The position numbers were made by a program, and so were the translations under genes. A stretch of 64,000 nt of DNA, taken from contig DASYBM010000002.1 in NCBI GenBank assembly GCA_036500765.1, positions 1-64,000 on the forward strand. Direction: 5' to 3'. Below, piece after piece: positions 27,049 through 34,599 of the stretch (position 1 is its first letter; each line of letters begins with the position of its first letter). Source of the stretch: Candidatus Sulfotelmatobacter sp. (GTDB lineage: Bacteria > Acidobacteriota > Terriglobia > Terriglobales > Acidobacteriaceae). Below the pieces are notes generated by a model, which had not been told where the DNA came from, did no database searches, and saw only the letters and a program-made list of their open reading frames with translations.

Positions 27049-30000
27049 TTGATGGAACTCTCCCGCAGGACTTTTCTCAAGGGCGCCGTTCTTGGCGGAG
27101 CCGGTTTCTCCGCACTTGGATTCGACCTTACCCCGGTCTACGCCCAAACTGCCAACCTGAAAATTTCGCGAGCCAGTGAGACGCGCAGCACTTGTCCTTA
27201 TTGTTCGGTGAGTTGCGGCGTGATTATTTACACGCTGGGCGACAAGGCGAAGAATGCGATCCCACAGGTGGTGCACGTCGAGGGCGATCCCGACCATCCT
27301 ATCAATCGCGGAACGCTGTGCCCAAAAGGGTCGTCGCTCGAGCAGGACATTATGAATGACAGGCGGCTGCTCAAGCCGCAGGTGCGGCGGCCGGGCGCGA
27401 CCGACTGGGAAGATATTTCGTGGGACCAGGCTTACGCGGAGATTGCTCAAAAAGTAAAGAAGACGCGCGACGACACTTTCACCGAGAAAGATCCTTCCGG
27501 CAAAACCGTGAATCGCTGCGAGGGCATTGCCTTCACCGGCGGCTGCACCGATACCAACGAATTTAATTATCTCGTGGTCAAGAGCATGCGCAGCCTGGGG
27601 GTCTGCTACCTGGAAAACCAGGCTCGGGTTTGACACGGCCCTACGGTCTCCAGTTTGGGGCCAACATTCGGACGCGGGGCGATGACCAATGGTTGGATCG
27701 ACATCAAGAACACCGACATGATGTTGATCATGGGCGGCAATCCCGCCGAGAACCATCCGTGCGGCTTCAAGTGGGCGATTGAAGCCAAGATTCACCGCAA
27801 TGCAAAAACGATCGTCGTCGACCCCCGGCTCACGCGGACTGCCGCGACGGCGGATATGTACGTACAGATTCGTGCGGGCGCGGATATTGCATTCCTCGGC
27901 GGCGTGATTAACTACGCCATTCAGAACGGCCGCATCGCCCACGACTATCTGGTCAACTACACCAACGCGGCGTTCATTATTAAAGACGGTTTCAAACTGC
28001 CGGAGGACGGCTTGTATTCCGGCTTCGACGCCGAGAAAAAAACATACGACAAGGCGACGTGGAATTACGAAGAAGGCGGAGACCTGACGGGCAAACCGGT
28101 CATGCCCACTCCCGCGGGGCAACAACCACCGGCCCCGCACGCTAACGCCGGCGGCGGCGAGGGCGCGGTCAAACAAGAAGGACAGGGCTATCAAGGCGCG
28201 AGTCCGGCAGGAGCGAAGGGCGGAACCGCTCCTGCTCCCACTTTGCCGCCGAAAACTGCGTTCGATCTTTCGTTGCAGCACCCGCGCTGCGTTTTTCAAT
28301 TATTGAAAAAGCAGTACGAGCGGTACACCCCGGAAATGGTGGAGCGCATTACGGGGATTCCAAAAGACGAGTTTCTCAAGGCAGCCGACCTTTACACTTC
28401 TGTGCGCAAAGACGGCGACATGAACAAAGTTTCGACCATCATTTATGCGGTGGGCTGGACGCAGCATAGTTTCGGCACGCAGATCATTCGCACCGCCGCC
28501 ATGCTGCAATTGCTGATGGGAAACGTGGGACGTGCGGGCGGCGGGGTGAATGCATTGCGCGGGCATTCCAACATTCAGGGCGCCACCGATATGGCCGGCA
28601 TCTTCGACAATCTGCCCGGCTATTTGAAGATGCCCAATCCCGCCGATGTGGATCTTGCGACGTATGTAAAGCGGATCACACCGACGGCCTCGAAGCCCGA
28701 TCCCTGGGATTCGTTCAACTACTGGTCGAACACGTCGAAGTTTACCGTGTCGTTCCTCAAAGCGATGTACGGGACGGCGGCGACCAAGGAGAACGATTTC
28801 GCGTTCAACTATTTGCCGAAGATCGATCGCAACTATTCCTGGGTCAACATCTGGAACGACATGTATGAAGGCAAAGTGAAAGGCCTGTTTGCCTTTGGCA
28901 TGAACGGCGTCATGATTGGCCCAGATTCGGAAAAGAATATTAACGCGTTGAAGAAGGCGGACTGGCTGGTGGTTTGCGAAATCTATCCCGACGAGACCAG
29001 CGAATTCTGGCGCGCTCCGGGCATTTCGACCGAGGATATGAAGCAGATCAACACCACCGTGTATCGGCTTCCGGGCGCGGGTTTCGCGGAGAAGGACGGG
29101 ACGTTCGTCAATTCGGCGCGCTGGTTGCAGTGGAAGAATGTTGCGCTGCCGCCGCCCGGACAGGCGCGACTTGACCAGGAAATTCTGGCGACGATCTTTT
29201 TGAAGACTCGCGAGCTGTATAAGAAAGACGGCGGAAAATTCCCAGACCCGGTTCTGAATGCATCGTTTGCCTACACAGATCCTTACAATCCGTCGCTCTC
29301 GGAGGTCGCGAAAGAACTCAACGGGAAGGCGATCGGCGACATCACTGACCCCAAGACGAATCAAACCATCAAAGCCGGACAGCAACTTCCCGGCTTTGCG
29401 TGGCTCAAAGACGACGGCACGACGCTCTCGGGCAACTGGCTGTATTGCGGATCGTGGACTGAGGCGGGCGCGCTGACGCAGCGTCGCGGCACTGAAGATC
29501 CATCGGGACTCGGCGTGTATCCAAACTGGGCGTGGTCGTGGCCCATGAATCGGCGTGTGCTTTACAACCGCGCGTCGTGCGATACCGAAGGCAAGCCCTG
29601 GGACCCGTCGCGACGCCAGGTTTGGTGGGATGAGAATAAGAAAACGTGGGCCGGAGTCGACGTGCCCGACTTTAAACCCGATTCTGCGCCCAAGGATCAC
29701 ATGGGTCCGTTCATCATGAATCCCGAAGGCGTGGGCCGGCTGTTCGTGCCGCTGAGCGCAATGGCGGACGGACCGTTCCCCGAATTTTATGAGCCGATCG
29801 AGAGCCCGATCGCAAATCCGCTGCATCCGAACCAGTCCACGAATCCCGTAGTGAAGAAGTACAAGACCGACATGGACAAGTACGGCACGGTGGAGCAGGG
29901 CTACAACGTGATCTGCACCACTTACCGGTTAACCGAGCATTACCACTACTGGACCAAGAATAATCCGATGAACGTGCAACTGGTGCCGGAACCGTTTGTG

Positions 30001-30303
30001 GAGGTGCCGGCGGAGTTGGCTGACAAGATGGGCATCACCGGAGGGGAGCGCGTAAAAGTGACGAGCGCGCGCAGCCACTACATTGCGAAAGCGATGGTCA
30101 CGCGACGCATTCGTCCGATGAAGATCGATGGCAAAGATATGTTTCAGATCGGCATTCCGATTCATTGGGGATTCCGCGGCATTGCCGAGGATGAAGGCAA
30201 GACGGCGAAAACGCTGGCGAATCAGTTGACGCCGACGGTGATCGATCCGAATGCGTTCACGCCGGAGTTTAAGGGATTTTTGGTGAAGATTGAGAAAGCG
30301 TAG
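27049..30303 (+). CDS. fdnG: Formate dehydrogenase-N catalytic subunit, selenoprotein
   Basis: About 1084 residues when the in-frame TGA at 27631-27633 is read as selenocysteine (residue 195). Without readthrough it would appear as two genes (27049-27633 and 27655-30303). The context ENQARV-Sec-HGPTVSSLGPTFGRG is exactly that of FdnG/FdoG, where Sec binds molybdenum (or tungsten). A twin-arginine signal (SRRTFLKG) starts the protein, and a 4Fe-4S motif follows (CPYCSVSCGV, then a later Cys in LCPKG). The bis-MGD domains follow. It oxidises formate in the periplasm. A Gly/Pro/Ala-rich insert at about residues 355-400, absent from E. coli FdnG as I recall it, precedes LQHPRCVF. Confidence 0.95.
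27631..27662 (+). promoter_or_regulatory. Selenocysteine UGA and bacterial SECIS hairpin
   Basis: TGA (27631-27633) is followed after 11 bases by a stem GGTCTC (27645-27650) / GGGGCC (27657-27662) with the six-base loop CAGTTT containing the GU expected of bacterial SECIS loops. The bases after TGA (CACGGCCC) match the E. coli formate dehydrogenase context. SelB binding here would direct Sec insertion; selA, selB, selC and selD must lie outside this window. Confidence 0.85.
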
Positions 30304-30304
30304 G

Positions 30305-30380
30305 AAGCTATCAGCTATCAGCTCTCAGCAAAATGCTGGAGAGTGATGGCTGACCGCTGATAGCTGAAAGCTGACAGCTA
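30305..30380 (+). repeat. Hairpin-forming repeat between fdnG and fdnH
   Basis: AGCTATCAGC occurs twice (30306-30315 and 30313-30322), and its perfect complement GCTGATAGCT lies at 30356-30365, followed by related AGCTGACAGC. The element fills nearly the whole gap between the two genes, right up to the fdnH start. Confidence 0.75.
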
Positions 30381-30382
30381 GA

Positions 30383-31306
30383 ATGAGCGATCGCAAGACA
30401 CTTCAGGTCCGGCAGATCTCGGGGCACTCCGGGACTCCGCCCGGCTTCGACACGCAGCGCGATGCGGAAGTGTGCAAGCTGATCGATACCACGATCTGCA
30501 TCGGCTGCAAGGCTTGCGAGGTCGCTTGCGTCGAGTGGAACGACATGCCGTTCAGTCCGACCACGTTCGACAATACCTATCAGACGATGCCGGCGACGCG
30601 CTGGAATTTCTGGAATCTGATCAAGTTCAACGAGCACCAGCGTGAGGACGGGACCATTCAGTGGCTCATGCGCAAGGACCAGTGCATGCACTGCGCCGAC
30701 CCGGGCTGCCTGCGCGCCTGTCCGGCGGACGGCGCCATTGTGCAATATACCAACGGCATTGTCGACTTCCAGCAGGAGAACTGCATCGGGTGCGAGTTCT
30801 GCGTTTCGGGATGTCCGTACGACATTCCCAAATTCAATCCCGCGACGAAAAAAGTTTACAAGTGCACGCTGTGCTCCGACCGCGTCGGCGCCAGCCTGGA
30901 GCCGGCCTGCATCAAGGCTTGCCCGACGGGATGCCTGAAGTTTGGCACCAAGGACGACATGAAGTTCATCGCGGAGGAGCGATCCAAGCAACTGCGCGAC
31001 AATTTCGGATTCAAAGATGCGGGCGTGTATGATCCGCAGTCGATCGGCGGCACCCATGTTATTTACGTGCTGCATGACGCGGAGAATCCCGAGCGTTACG
31101 GCGGACTGACAAAGAATCCGGTGATCCCGTGGAGCTATACGGTTTGGAAATGGCTATTCAAGCCTGTGCTGGGCGCGTTTGCCATGTTTGGCCTGCTAGG
31201 AGTTCTGCTGCACTACATCACCGTGGGTCCGCGCGTGCCGCAACCTGAGCCGCCGCTGAAGCCCCAGCCGCCGAAGAAGGAGGGCTCCGATGTCCAGCGT
31301 AGTTGA
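30383..31306 (+). CDS. fdnH: Formate dehydrogenase-N iron-sulfur subunit
   Basis: 307 residues. Four ferredoxin-like clusters can be read: CIGCKACEVAC, CMHCADPGCLRACP, CIGCEFCVSGCP and CTLCSDRVGASLEPACIKACP. A single C-terminal membrane helix (about residues 262-282, LGAFAMFGLLGVLLHYI) anchors it. A proline-rich tail follows. It passes electrons from the catalytic subunit to the cytochrome b subunit. It lies 79 bases after fdnG, with a hairpin repeat between them and no obvious ribosome site. It overlaps the next gene by 17 bases. Confidence 0.95.
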   Translation: MSDRKTLQVRQISGHSGTPPGFDTQRDAEVCKLIDTTICIGCKACEVACVEWNDMPFSPTTFDNTYQTMPATRWNFWNLIKFNEHQREDGTIQWLMRKDQCMHCADPGCLRACPADGAIVQYTNGIVDFQQENCIGCEFCVSGCPYDIPKFNPATKKVYKCTLCSDRVGASLEPACIKACPTGCLKFGTKDDMKFIAEERSKQLRDNFGFKDAGVYDPQSIGGTHVIYVLHDAENPERYGGLTKNPVIPWSYTVWKWLFKPVLGAFAMFGLLGVLLHYITVGPRVPQPEPPLKPQPPKKEGSDVQRS

Positions 31307-32036
31307 ACGCTTTGACGACAAGGCGCGCGATGCCTTCGACCGCATCGGGCAGAATGAGATCCATGTCGGCGAGTTGCAACGCCATCGCGTCTATACGCGC
31401 TTTCTGCACTGGATGGTTGCTCTATTCTTTTTTCTGGCATTGTTCTCTGGCTTCGGCATTTATCTTCCGTGGCTCTTCCGCTGGTTCACGCCGATCTTCG
31501 GTGGCGGGCCGATGGCTCGCGCTCTGCATCCCTGGTTCGGATTGGGATTCGTGACTTTCTTTGGACTGCAAACACTGAACTGGATCGCGCCGATGAAGTG
31601 GACTCCTGCGGACACGCGCTGGATGCGTAACCTGAAAAACACGGTCGGCGGCAACGAAAAAATGGAACCGCCCGACACGGGCTTCTTCAACGGCGGCCAA
31701 AAGGCGCAATTCTGGGAGATCGTCGCGGGCTCTGTGATTTATCTGATAACGGGAATTATTCTTTGGGCCGGGGCGCGCACGTTCGGGCGCTGGGCCGTTG
31801 CCGTCAGCTACGTTCTTCACGATATCTCCGCGATCGTGATGCTGGGCGGAATCTTTATTCATATTTATCTCAGCACCATCGGCGAGCCCGGAACTTTTCA
31901 GGCGATGATTCGCGGCGCGGTCAGCGAGGCCTGGGCGTGGACGTTCCATCCGGCTTGGTACAAAGAGGTGACGGGGCGCGATCCTGCGCAGGCCTGTGAG
32001 GAGGCGCGACAGCATGGGCGGTTCGAGGGCAGGTAG
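31290..32036 (+). CDS. fdnI: Formate dehydrogenase-N cytochrome b556 subunit
   Basis: 248 residues with four transmembrane helices, beginning ALFFFLALFSGFGIYLPWLF, FGLGFVTFFGLQTLNW, IVAGSVIYLITGIILWAG and HDISAIVMLGGIFIHIY. Candidate haem ligands are the histidines in RFLHWMV, ALHPWFG, YVLHDIS and FIHIYLST. It delivers electrons from formate to the quinone pool across the inner membrane. The start overlaps fdnH, typical of translational coupling in this operon. It is the last gene of the operon, ending with the conserved HPAWYKE phrase. Confidence 0.94.
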   Translation: MSSVVERFDDKARDAFDRIGQNEIHVGELQRHRVYTRFLHWMVALFFFLALFSGFGIYLPWLFRWFTPIFGGGPMARALHPWFGLGFVTFFGLQTLNWIAPMKWTPADTRWMRNLKNTVGGNEKMEPPDTGFFNGGQKAQFWEIVAGSVIYLITGIILWAGARTFGRWAVAVSYVLHDISAIVMLGGIFIHIYLSTIGEPGTFQAMIRGAVSEAWAWTFHPAWYKEVTGRDPAQACEEARQHGRFEGR

Positions 32037-32304
32037 TTGACGAGGATCTCTTCCTTTCTCCGATCTTTACAATGGATTTTTTGCATTGGACTATCTTGCG
32101 GGTCTGCGCCAAAGTAATTCTGCATCTCCTGCAATGTCGCAGGAGATCGGCCACCATTTCAGTTGGCTTTCTCCCCGCGAATGGGTTTTTCCAGTTGCTG
32201 ACCACGCTGTCTGCATGTGGGCCTTGAAAATGAGGTCTGCATTCGTAATCGAACAAGATCGGCTCGTTTCAGAATCCTGCCCTGTCAGAATTAAGGGGGA
32301 CATT

Positions 32305-32946
32305 TTGTCCGACAAAAAAGCTGTGAGCCTGCGAGATGTCGCCGAACGAGTTGGGCTTGCTCCGTGTTCCGTATCGGCCGTGCTGAACAACACGCCTGCG
32401 TCGTGGGCGATTCCGCAGCGCACGAAGGAGCGAGTCTTCCGCGCTGCCGGCGAGTTGAACTATCGCCCGAACCTGTGGGCGCGATCGCTGCGCACCCGGC
32501 GCACCCGACTGGTGGCCGCCATCACCGCGGATATTGGGCGGCCGTCGGTGGCGCGTGTCGTGGCGGGAGTACAGAAACAGTTGCATCGGCGCGGCTATCT
32601 GCTGGCCCTGGAATCGTTCGACTGCGCTTCCGAGTGGAATACGATTCCAGCTCAGCTCCACCAGCGCGGGATCGAAGGAGTCATCGCCATCGACTCGATT
32701 CTGCCGCAGGAAATGGAATTACCCGTCGCTTCGGTTGAAGTGGAATATATGGCGCTTCCGCAACCGTTAGACGATGAGATGCAGGCGTGGCTTTCGGAAT
32801 TGGGCGAGTCCGCGGCCGATACCGTTATGCGTCAGATTGAAAAGGACAATGCTCCGCGCCGGATGAAGGTGCTTCCGAAGCTTCCCAGTTCGTCCTTCGA
32901 GTTGCCAGGTGGGAGGCTGAATATGGATGTTCCGGAGCGGGCCTGA
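32305..32946 (+). CDS. LacI-like regulator lacking most of its sensor domain
   Basis: About 213 residues from a TTG at 32305, which has AAGGGGG just upstream. The ATG-initiated frame (32086) adds 73 residues with no family character. The DNA-binding part is complete (VSLRDVAERVGLAPCSVSAVLNN and the hinge RPNLWARSLRT). The sensor domain begins normally (TRLVAAITADIGRPSVARVVAGVQ). After about 65 residues it jumps to what looks like a C-terminal LacI segment (QAWLSELGESAADTVMRQIEK). A LacI protein is normally about 340 residues, so roughly 120-130 are missing. Either it is a degenerate gene, or a short repressor that cannot sense a sugar. It precedes the trehalose cluster on the other strand. 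Confidence 0.7.
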   Translation: MSDKKAVSLRDVAERVGLAPCSVSAVLNNTPASWAIPQRTKERVFRAAGELNYRPNLWARSLRTRRTRLVAAITADIGRPSVARVVAGVQKQLHRRGYLLALESFDCASEWNTIPAQLHQRGIEGVIAIDSILPQEMELPVASVEVEYMALPQPLDDEMQAWLSELGESAADTVMRQIEKDNAPRRMKVLPKLPSSSFELPGGRLNMDVPERA

Positions 32947-33013
32947 GCGCAGCGGCCAAGTCGCTGGCGAAACCGGTGAGAAAGCTTTCGCCGCCGACTG
33001 CGAGGAGAAGTTC

Positions 33014-33040
33014 CCCTTCGACGAGTTCAGGGGCGGCTCG
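33014..33040 (+). repeat. Repeat fragment (CCCTTCGAC type)
   Basis: CCCTTCGACGAGTTCAGGGG then CGGCTCG resembles the fragment inside the ASPIC gene (11831-11859) and the first half of R1. It lies in the 138-base gap after the LacI-like gene. Confidence 0.5.
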
Positions 33041-33084
33041 CGCGATATTCGGCGGGGACGCCAGCGCTACTCGAGAATATGCCG

Positions 33085-34599
33085 CTACGGGCGCCGTGCT
33101 CCGCGGCGCGACTTGGCACGCTCTAATATTCGAAAGAGCAGCAGCCAGCGCTTTACGTTGGTGGTCATCAGGAAATTCTCCTTGACGTGCTCCCTCCCCG
33201 CGGTGCCAATGCGTTTGGCGAAATCCGGGTGCGTCAGCAGATAGCGAATCTGAAACGCGCAGCCCTCCACCGAGTGCACCAGAACCCCAGTCAGTTTGTG
33301 AATGACCTGGTTCGGAATGCCGCCTACGGCGCCCGCGATTGTCGGCTTTCCTTTCCACAATGCTTCGGTGACGGTGAGGCCAAAGCCTTCTTTAAGTGAC
33401 TTCTGCACCACGATGGTAGAGGCGCGCTGAATGGCATTGATTTCGAGCGCGCACCAAGGCGGAAGGTCGAGAATGATAATGTCGGGGTCGTTCCCGGCGA
33501 CGTCTTTTACTTCCTGCAAAACGGCCGCGCCTTCGGGATCGTCGGATGCGCCGCCGCCAGCCAGAACCAACTGGCAGTCCACGTACTTCTTGGCAAGTTT
33601 ATAAGCCTGTACGACGCCGACGGGATCTTTCAATCGGTCGAATCGCGATACCTGAGTCACGATGGGACGGGAGCGGTCAATGCCAAAATCGTCGCATATT
33701 CTCTGGACCACGGCGTCGGGCAGGTCTTTGTTTTTTTCCGACAGCGGATCGATGCAGGGATAAAACAGATATTGCGGAATCGGCAGTTGGCGCGCGAACG
33801 ACTGCGAAGAAAAAATCGCGGCGTCGAATTGCTCCACAAACGGCCGCAGAAATTCCCACACCTGCTCATCGGGATTCGACAAGTCAATGTGACAACGCCA
33901 CACCCAGTTGGCTGGAGTCCTGTCGTGGGAGCGGATCAGGCCGACGGGCTGGGGATCGTGAATCACGATCAAATCTTCGGCGAACTGGAGGCGTTCGCGA
34001 TTCTGCTCGTTGTACATCAGAAATATTTCCTGCGCAGCCTTGGTCAGCTCGTAGCGGGTGCCATGCAGAGCGTTGTGAAAGGCTTTGGTGACCTCGAAGA
34101 AATCGTTGCCGCCGGTAATCACGTCCCAGTGCGTGGGGACTTCCAACTCGGAGAGCAAGGGAACCAGGCGATTCAGCATCTCGGCCACGCCTCCTCCCAC
34201 CGCGGTGGAGTTGACCATCTTGATCGACTTGCCTTTCAGATCGCGGGCGAGAAAACGCAAATCGTCTAACTGAGCCTGACCAATGATTTTCTCGTAGTCG
34301 TCCAAATGCGGCGAGGGCGCCGGGGGCGGCGGGGTGAGCACGCTGGCGGGCAGGCGACGGCTCTGTCCGCCGCTCGTGTCGCTTCCCGATCCCGTCGGGG
34401 GCGCAGGGCGAGCGGCGCCTTCCGAAACCTCGGCGTCGCGAACTTCCCTTTCTGCCGTTTCTGCGGCAGCGGTTTCTGGGCCGGCGGACACGCGAGCATC
34501 GATTTCAGACTGTGAGCCAGCGGTTTGCGGGGAAGCGCTGGAGCGCTGTTCTTCACTTGAATACTTCTCGGTCGTAGACTTCTCGGTCGTAAACTTCAT
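33085..34599 (-). CDS. treT: Trehalose synthase-type glycosyltransferase (TreT-like, GT4)
   Basis: 504 residues. The first 95 or so are a Ser/Thr/Glu/Pro-rich disordered extension not normal for the family. The rest is a GT4 fold: SIKMVNSTAVGGGVAEMLNRLVP at the acceptor side, the HDPQPVGLI phrase, VTQVSRFDRLKDPVGVV starting the second Rossmann domain, and the E-x7-E type motif KEGFGLTVTEA. TreT joins NDP-glucose and glucose to trehalose. It ends a three-gene minus-strand cluster: OtsA-like, a small protein, then this gene 12 bases later. The neighbours make a trehalose role likely; donor and direction are inferred. Confidence 0.88.
   Translation of the reverse strand: MKFTTEKSTTEKYSSEEQRSSASPQTAGSQSEIDARVSAGPETAAAETAEREVRDAEVSEGAARPAPPTGSGSDTSGGQSRRLPASVLTPPPPAPSPHLDDYEKIIGQAQLDDLRFLARDLKGKSIKMVNSTAVGGGVAEMLNRLVPLLSELEVPTHWDVITGGNDFFEVTKAFHNALHGTRYELTKAAQEIFLMYNEQNRERLQFAEDLIVIHDPQPVGLIRSHDRTPANWVWRCHIDLSNPDEQVWEFLRPFVEQFDAAIFSSQSFARQLPIPQYLFYPCIDPLSEKNKDLPDAVVQRICDDFGIDRSRPIVTQVSRFDRLKDPVGVVQAYKLAKKYVDCQLVLAGGGASDDPEGAAVLQEVKDVAGNDPDIIILDLPPWCALEINAIQRASTIVVQKSLKEGFGLTVTEALWKGKPTIAGAVGGIPNQVIHKLTGVLVHSVEGCAFQIRYLLTHPDFAKRIGTAGREHVKENFLMTTNVKRWLLLFRILERAKSRRGARRP

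Follow-up and report, generated by a model that had tools for sequence, protein, structure and literature searches.

The DNA analyzed here, called the window throughout, is a 64,000-nucleotide stretch of the forward strand of contig DASYBM010000002.1 from Candidatus Sulfotelmatobacter sp., and the locus under study within it comprises fdnG, fdnH, and fdnI, which code for the alpha, beta, and gamma subunits of a formate dehydrogenase-N (FDH-N) type enzyme. As summarized in Table 1, fdnG carries an in-frame UGA that is followed by a bacterial SECIS, and two synonymous bases inside the apical hairpin of this element proved to be coupled among related genes.

Table 1. Features of the fdnGHI locus (window positions)
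Feature	Position	Strand	Basis or remark
fdnG, alpha subunit, FDH-N type, one selenoprotein gene via UGA	27052..30303	+	TIGR01553, PDB 1kqf_A
Probable twin-arginine export signal, SRRTFLK	27052..27147	+	sequence
Bacterial SECIS, Rfam SECIS_3 (RF01989)	27628..27686	+	70.4 bits, model 1-59 of 59
In-frame UGA, selenocysteine codon 195 (ARV-U-HGPTV)	27631..27633	+	alignment to 1kqf_A, TGA in relatives
Apical SECIS hairpin, bases 15-32 in UGA numbering	27645..27662	+	U17 = 27647, loop G23-U24 = 27653-27654
Base 21 of the coupled pair, synonymous third position of the Ser201 codon	27651	+	C in the window, A in the alternative haplotype
Base 30 of the coupled pair, synonymous third position of the Gly204 codon	27660	+	G in the window, A in the alternative haplotype
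Pro/Gly-rich variable insert in FdnG, 70 residues after WNY	28069..28278	+	length comparison
fdnH, iron-sulfur beta subunit with membrane anchor	30383..31306	+	TIGR01582, PF13247, PF09163
fdnI, cytochrome b gamma subunit	31290..32036	+	TIGR01583, PF01292

Translation of the frame from 27049 to 30303 yielded 1,084 residues with U at position 195, the TGA being the sole stop before the terminal one; a mechanical list of open reading frames (ORFs) cuts the gene into two pieces in the same frame (27049-27633 and 27655-30303). The ATG at 27052, directly after a TTG at 27049, is the likelier start codon. The protein matched TIGR01553 with 1331.6 bits (curated cutoff, 814.2) and contained PF04879, PF00384, and PF01568, covering the N-terminal 4Fe-4S domain and the molybdopterin dinucleotide domain. 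Its best relative of solved structure was PDB 1kqf_A, the E. coli FDH-N (1094.3 bits), and in the alignment the UGA stood opposite the X of ARVXHGPTV, which is selenocysteine (Sec). The initial annotation had placed this TGA at the Sec position of FdnG with the frame continuing on both sides, and the alignment and the translation bore out both statements. Near the N terminus, SRRTFLK presumably fits the twin-arginine (Tat) consensus.

The neighboring genes were assigned in the same way, with FdnH scoring 342.4 bits against TIGR01582 (cutoff, 334.7) and FdnI scoring 158 bits against TIGR01583 (cutoff, 115.85). The locus thus resembles E. coli FdnGHI (1kqf) in the Sec position of the alpha subunit, in two long aligned stretches, and in having the beta and gamma genes next to it. 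It differs by the Pro/Gly-rich insert after residue 340, and the alignment with 1kqf_A was interrupted at query residues 341 to 406. The insert spanned 16 to 124 residues in the 75 of 84 close homologue rows in which it was measurable and 15 residues in the 9 measurable rows among 26 others. Between fdnG and fdnH (30306-30379) lies an imperfect 24-nt inverted repeat (88%) with 7-base units AGCTNTC; a probe for this repeat, allowing at most 2 mismatches, found 138 places in the genome versus 25 for the reversed control, which places it in a dispersed short repeat family.

A further difference from the E. coli system concerns FdhD, which E. coli requires for active formate dehydrogenase. No match to FdhD (PF02634) was found in the parent genome (5.04 Mb in 17 contigs, 99.3% complete), while 8 of 14 control genomes did match; fdhD has either been lost in this genome or is hidden in an assembly gap. 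Among related loci, fdhD is located directly behind fdnGHI in L060 (11110-11976; 235.9 bits with Pfam) and about 1.7 kb behind fdnG in L069, and L086 and L021 also hold the gene. At the corresponding place in the window (32037-33000) there is a short LacI-type gene instead. The idea that this LacI-type ORF (32086-32946) had been frameshifted into the following ORF (32927-33244) was dropped after a tblastn comparison with 80 named loci, in which the former matched L050 only, up to residue 281 of 286, and the latter matched none.

The parent genome was searched for the Sec machinery. The models for the tRNA, selB, and selD also matched weakly in all 14 control genomes, and only matches above the cutoffs were therefore counted. 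By this standard, the genome contains a tRNA-Sec gene (selC; 64.8 bits versus a gathering score of 47) with the anticodon tca, i.e., UCA, according to ARAGORN, as well as selA (531.1 bits; cutoff, 267.9), selB (348 bits with neighbors; cutoff, 242.25), and selD (366.1 bits; cutoff, 125); a second tRNA-Sec match above gathering (47.1 bits) was called tRNA-Ser by ARAGORN. The selD gene (L014; G000:C11:42967-43893) has an in-frame TGA of its own in the motif AAGUASK, and its product is probably itself a selenoprotein. A hairpin was predicted after that TGA (-14.5 kcal/mol over 40 nt, a value taken without a shuffle control), and no Rfam SECIS match was found there. The genome also encodes a second UGA-containing formate dehydrogenase (L162; G000:C4:79394-82330), which scored above the NF041513 cutoff and showed a weak SECIS_3 match (27.4 bits) and a predicted hairpin with a 7-bp flush stem and the loop GGUCU.

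The SECIS of fdnG, directly 3' of the UGA, matched SECIS_3 over its full length and above the gathering score of 63 (E = 1.7e-15). It was the best of three matches at an E of ≤10 in the genome, the others scoring 27.4 and 19.9 bits, in a scan that scored 150 of 2,024 first-look candidates. RF00031 was also tried; it is the wrong SECIS family for bacteria and matched nothing even in the controls, hence it was uninformative. As the initial annotation had described, a 6-bp stem with a GU-containing loop begins after 11 intervening bases (27634-27644); in this flush form, 27645-27650 pairs with 27657-27662 (GGUCUC/GGGGCC) through two G-U pairs, leaving the loop CAGUUU. The family model has G-C at its own pairs 21-33 and 22-32, where the window carries C-G and U-G, respectively. 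We counted bases from the UGA and assigned the roles of U17, G23, and U24 as for the E. coli element in PMC8659212, and the likeness to that element extends to the spacing of these three bases, with U17 and the loop GU present in all 110 rows, the window included. U17 and G23 are also constrained by the protein, as they are second bases of a Val and a Ser codon. Among third-codon bases, those at 15, 18, 24, and 27 were invariant in all 84 close homologues, while those at 9, 12, 33, 36, and 39 varied, of which 9, 12, 33, and 36 lie outside the apical helix.

Folding energy was less telling. The 50 nt from the UGA folded alone gave a z of +0.85, with 161 of 200 shuffles at least as stable, and the case for the element therefore rests on its match to the family model and on comparison among relatives rather than on how stably it folds. 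The bacterial SECIS model in PMC13188914 asks for a G among the two leading loop bases, 16 to 37 nt from the UGA to the loop, and a minimum free energy (MFE) of at most -7.5 kcal/mol. A register with U17 bulged agrees with the G and spacing rules (loop AGUUU, 18 nt), and the flush 6-bp register departs from the G rule. The MFE was -6.3 kcal/mol for the 18-nt hairpin and -12.1 kcal/mol for 44 nt, the latter with a different pairing. A bulged U in the upper stem of bacterial SECIS is also described in PMC8704476.

To place the UGA in a wider context, relatives of fdnG were collected. An FdnG homologue at an E of ≤1e-50 is present in 39 of 297 genomes from the phylum, and each of these 39 has a row that spans residue 195 and contains one TGA. 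Co-occurrence with selB was non-discriminating, since 269 of the 297 genomes passed at an E of ≤1e-30, and selA was therefore used: it was present in 38 of the 39 homologue-bearing genomes versus 192 of 297 overall (list read by eye), the one homologue-bearing genome with no selA at an E of ≤1e-40 being G261 (94% complete). The Sec codon was TGA in all 109 readable loci, which comprised 80 named relatives (the best 80 of 139), 28 other loci, and the second enzyme of the same genome (L048); 2 of 111 loci were unreadable (L037 and L049), and the two entries for the window itself, L017 and L047, had been excluded beforehand. The named relatives are Acidobacteria(ota) or subgroups thereof, including some Candidatus Sulfotelmatobacter and many assemblies from bog or palsa. 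No Cys form at the Sec codon was found within these homologue searches (genomes at an E of ≤1e-50 and the best 80 of 139 relatives).

Two other accounts of the UGA were weighed. Were it a genuine stop or an error in sequencing, in a pseudogene or between two genes, the split made by ORF callers and the unexceptional raw fold of the 50 nt would be understandable; against this stand the TGA shared by every readable relative, a SECIS_3 score above gathering together with a complete Sec machinery, and a homologous frame that stays open for 882 codons after the TGA, and we consider this account extremely improbable. Equally far-fetched is readthrough of another kind, by near-cognate suppression or with UGA read as Trp: nothing in its favor was found, the genome has a tRNA-Sec with a UCA anticodon along with selA, selB, and selD, the UGA aligns with the X of 1kqf_A, and fdnG has no other in-frame TGA. 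Frame, homology, SECIS, and Sec machinery, including all four sel genes that it had suggested looking for, instead support the proposal of the initial annotation that the two predicted genes are one selenoprotein gene in an organism with a Sec pathway; the counterevidence it had named, an absence of selB and tRNA-Sec or a TGC or TGT at this codon, was not encountered, both genes scoring above their cutoffs and the codon being TGA in each of the 109 readable loci. Thus, with a probability of about 0.97, the region encodes a single FdnG, the Sec-containing catalytic subunit of an FDH-N-type enzyme (FdnGHI) that is bound to the membrane and faces outward. By analogy with the family, SelB carrying Sec-tRNA-Sec would bind the hairpin just 3' of the UGA, the ribosome would place Sec at residue 195 rather than terminate, and Sec195 would work at the Mo/W active site of the exported enzyme, with electrons passing via FdnH and FdnI to quinone. 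The selenoprotein gene itself is a well-known arrangement and in this sense ordinary.

The two coupled bases may be less so. In the 84 close homologues, bases 21 and 30 were C/G in 34 and A/A in 50, and no mixed form occurred. Their normalized mutual information was 1.0, compared with 0.24 for the next pair and 0.18 at the 99.9th percentile of 3,321 pairs (from 82 fourfold sites that have a base in every one of the 84 rows and show a second base in 15 or more of them). A quick gene tree (LG+G4, SH-aLRT only) was built from the proteins and is therefore blind to both synonymous bases; on it, 8 haplotype changes were needed, 7 of them forced by well-supported branches, and in independent pairs both bases had changed in the same direction in 7 of 7 (p = 0.0156). 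A search with a pattern left free at both bases returned 68 places, spread over 67 of the 399 genomes searched from the class, with 57 A/A, 11 C/G, and again no mixed form; these were tallied by hand, and a script recount of 30 gave 29 A/A and 1 C/G. No fewer than 4 of these places (in G000, G084, G257, and G265) had already been counted among the 84 rows, and further pattern genomes may share species with the named relatives, so that the pattern count is not an entirely independent replicate. Four of the 30 recounted loci had short frames, all of which reach the downstream end of their sequence, and one of them, L157, meets a stop 40 codons upstream as well. Both haplotypes occur together in one genome, G630, each in a gene of its own; the two genes share 81% identity over 228 comparable residues, and the C/G copy reaches the contig end. 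If G630 has one SelB, that SelB would encounter both haplotypes. These data demonstrated that, in this group of FdnG genes, the apical hairpin of the SECIS exists in two synonymous haplotypes, which have interconverted repeatedly and always at both bases. A targeted open-access literature search (titles and the starts of abstracts) found no coupled synonymous changes in bacterial SECIS, and the haplotypes may be a variant of this element not described before.

Direct pairing between base 21 and base 30 occurs in none of the helices examined. We compared the 16 synonymous combinations in two helix registers. With C/G, the pairs C21-G27 and G30-C18 would form with U17 bulged and the loop AGUUU, similar to the E. 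coli element, whereas A/A would allow A30-U17 and A21-U26 to pair, giving a flush 7-bp stem with the loop AGUU. Full pairing in the bulged register was available to just two combinations, C/G being the better (-6.0 versus -3.7 kcal/mol), and A/A gave the most stable flush stem of all 16 (-8.5 kcal/mol). In terms of calculated energies, the two haplotypes are thus the best choices for each of the two registers, and a recurrent switch between a bulged-U17 and a flush register could explain the coupling. We propose this two-state SECIS, with a one-base apical slip between C21/G30 bulged and A21/A30 flush, at least 7 flips, and selection against mixed forms, only tentatively and at slightly less than even odds. 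The flush stem of A/G (-7.9 kcal/mol) is nearly as good as that of A/A, yet A/G was never seen, so energy alone cannot explain its exclusion. Also against the register model, the C/G hairpin of the window is slightly better flush (-6.3 kcal/mol) than bulged (-6.0 kcal/mol). Relative to the E. coli-type element, as presented in PMC8659212, the bulged register is here only near-isoenergetic with the flush one, and in the A/A haplotype it is not fully pairable; relative to SECIS_3, two of six apical pairs that were examined are missing from the A/A sister genes. A third arrangement is open to 23 of the 26 rows that do not belong to the close group, namely, a flush 7-bp stem whose pairs run from 15-33 to 21-27 and include U17.

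Other origins of the coupling have to be set against this switch. Recombination or gene conversion could have moved the bases together as one short block, or codon bias or base composition could link them, in either case in the absence of selection on RNA pairing; the existence of just two haplotypes would suit such an origin, G630 would be a potential donor, and a tract of 10 to 20 nt would still be compatible with the data. However, the varying third bases at 9, 12, 33, 36, and 39 are neighbors of the coupled ones, no other of the 3,321 site pairs comes close, and the G+C contents of the loci overlap (0.538-0.673 for C/G and 0.546-0.621 for A/A); we consider such an origin unlikely. The bases could also be tied together by contact with SelB or by a competing pairing with the upstream GGCCC (27637-27641). 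The RNAfold optimum of the 50-nt stretch indeed pairs GGCCCU with GGGGCC, an arrangement that A30 would disturb, and the missing mixed forms would be energetically acceptable in the flush register; base 21, however, is unpaired in that fold, which leaves its change together with base 30 unaccounted for, and we regard this explanation as rather unlikely.

The selenoprotein corrects the annotation split of fdnG and suggests that Acidobacteriota oxidize formate in a Sec-dependent manner. The same kind of enzyme from the same phylum is reported in PMC6018796, whose main text contains no words beginning with "selen." Beyond this gene, the coupled switch amounts to a natural mutagenesis experiment on the bacterial SECIS, and it says which bases act together. 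If the two-state SECIS holds true, the bulged U17 that is regarded as essential in E. coli would be dispensable for a natural SelB, and four short RNAs, two natural and two never seen here, offer a test of SelB's need for a bulged U.
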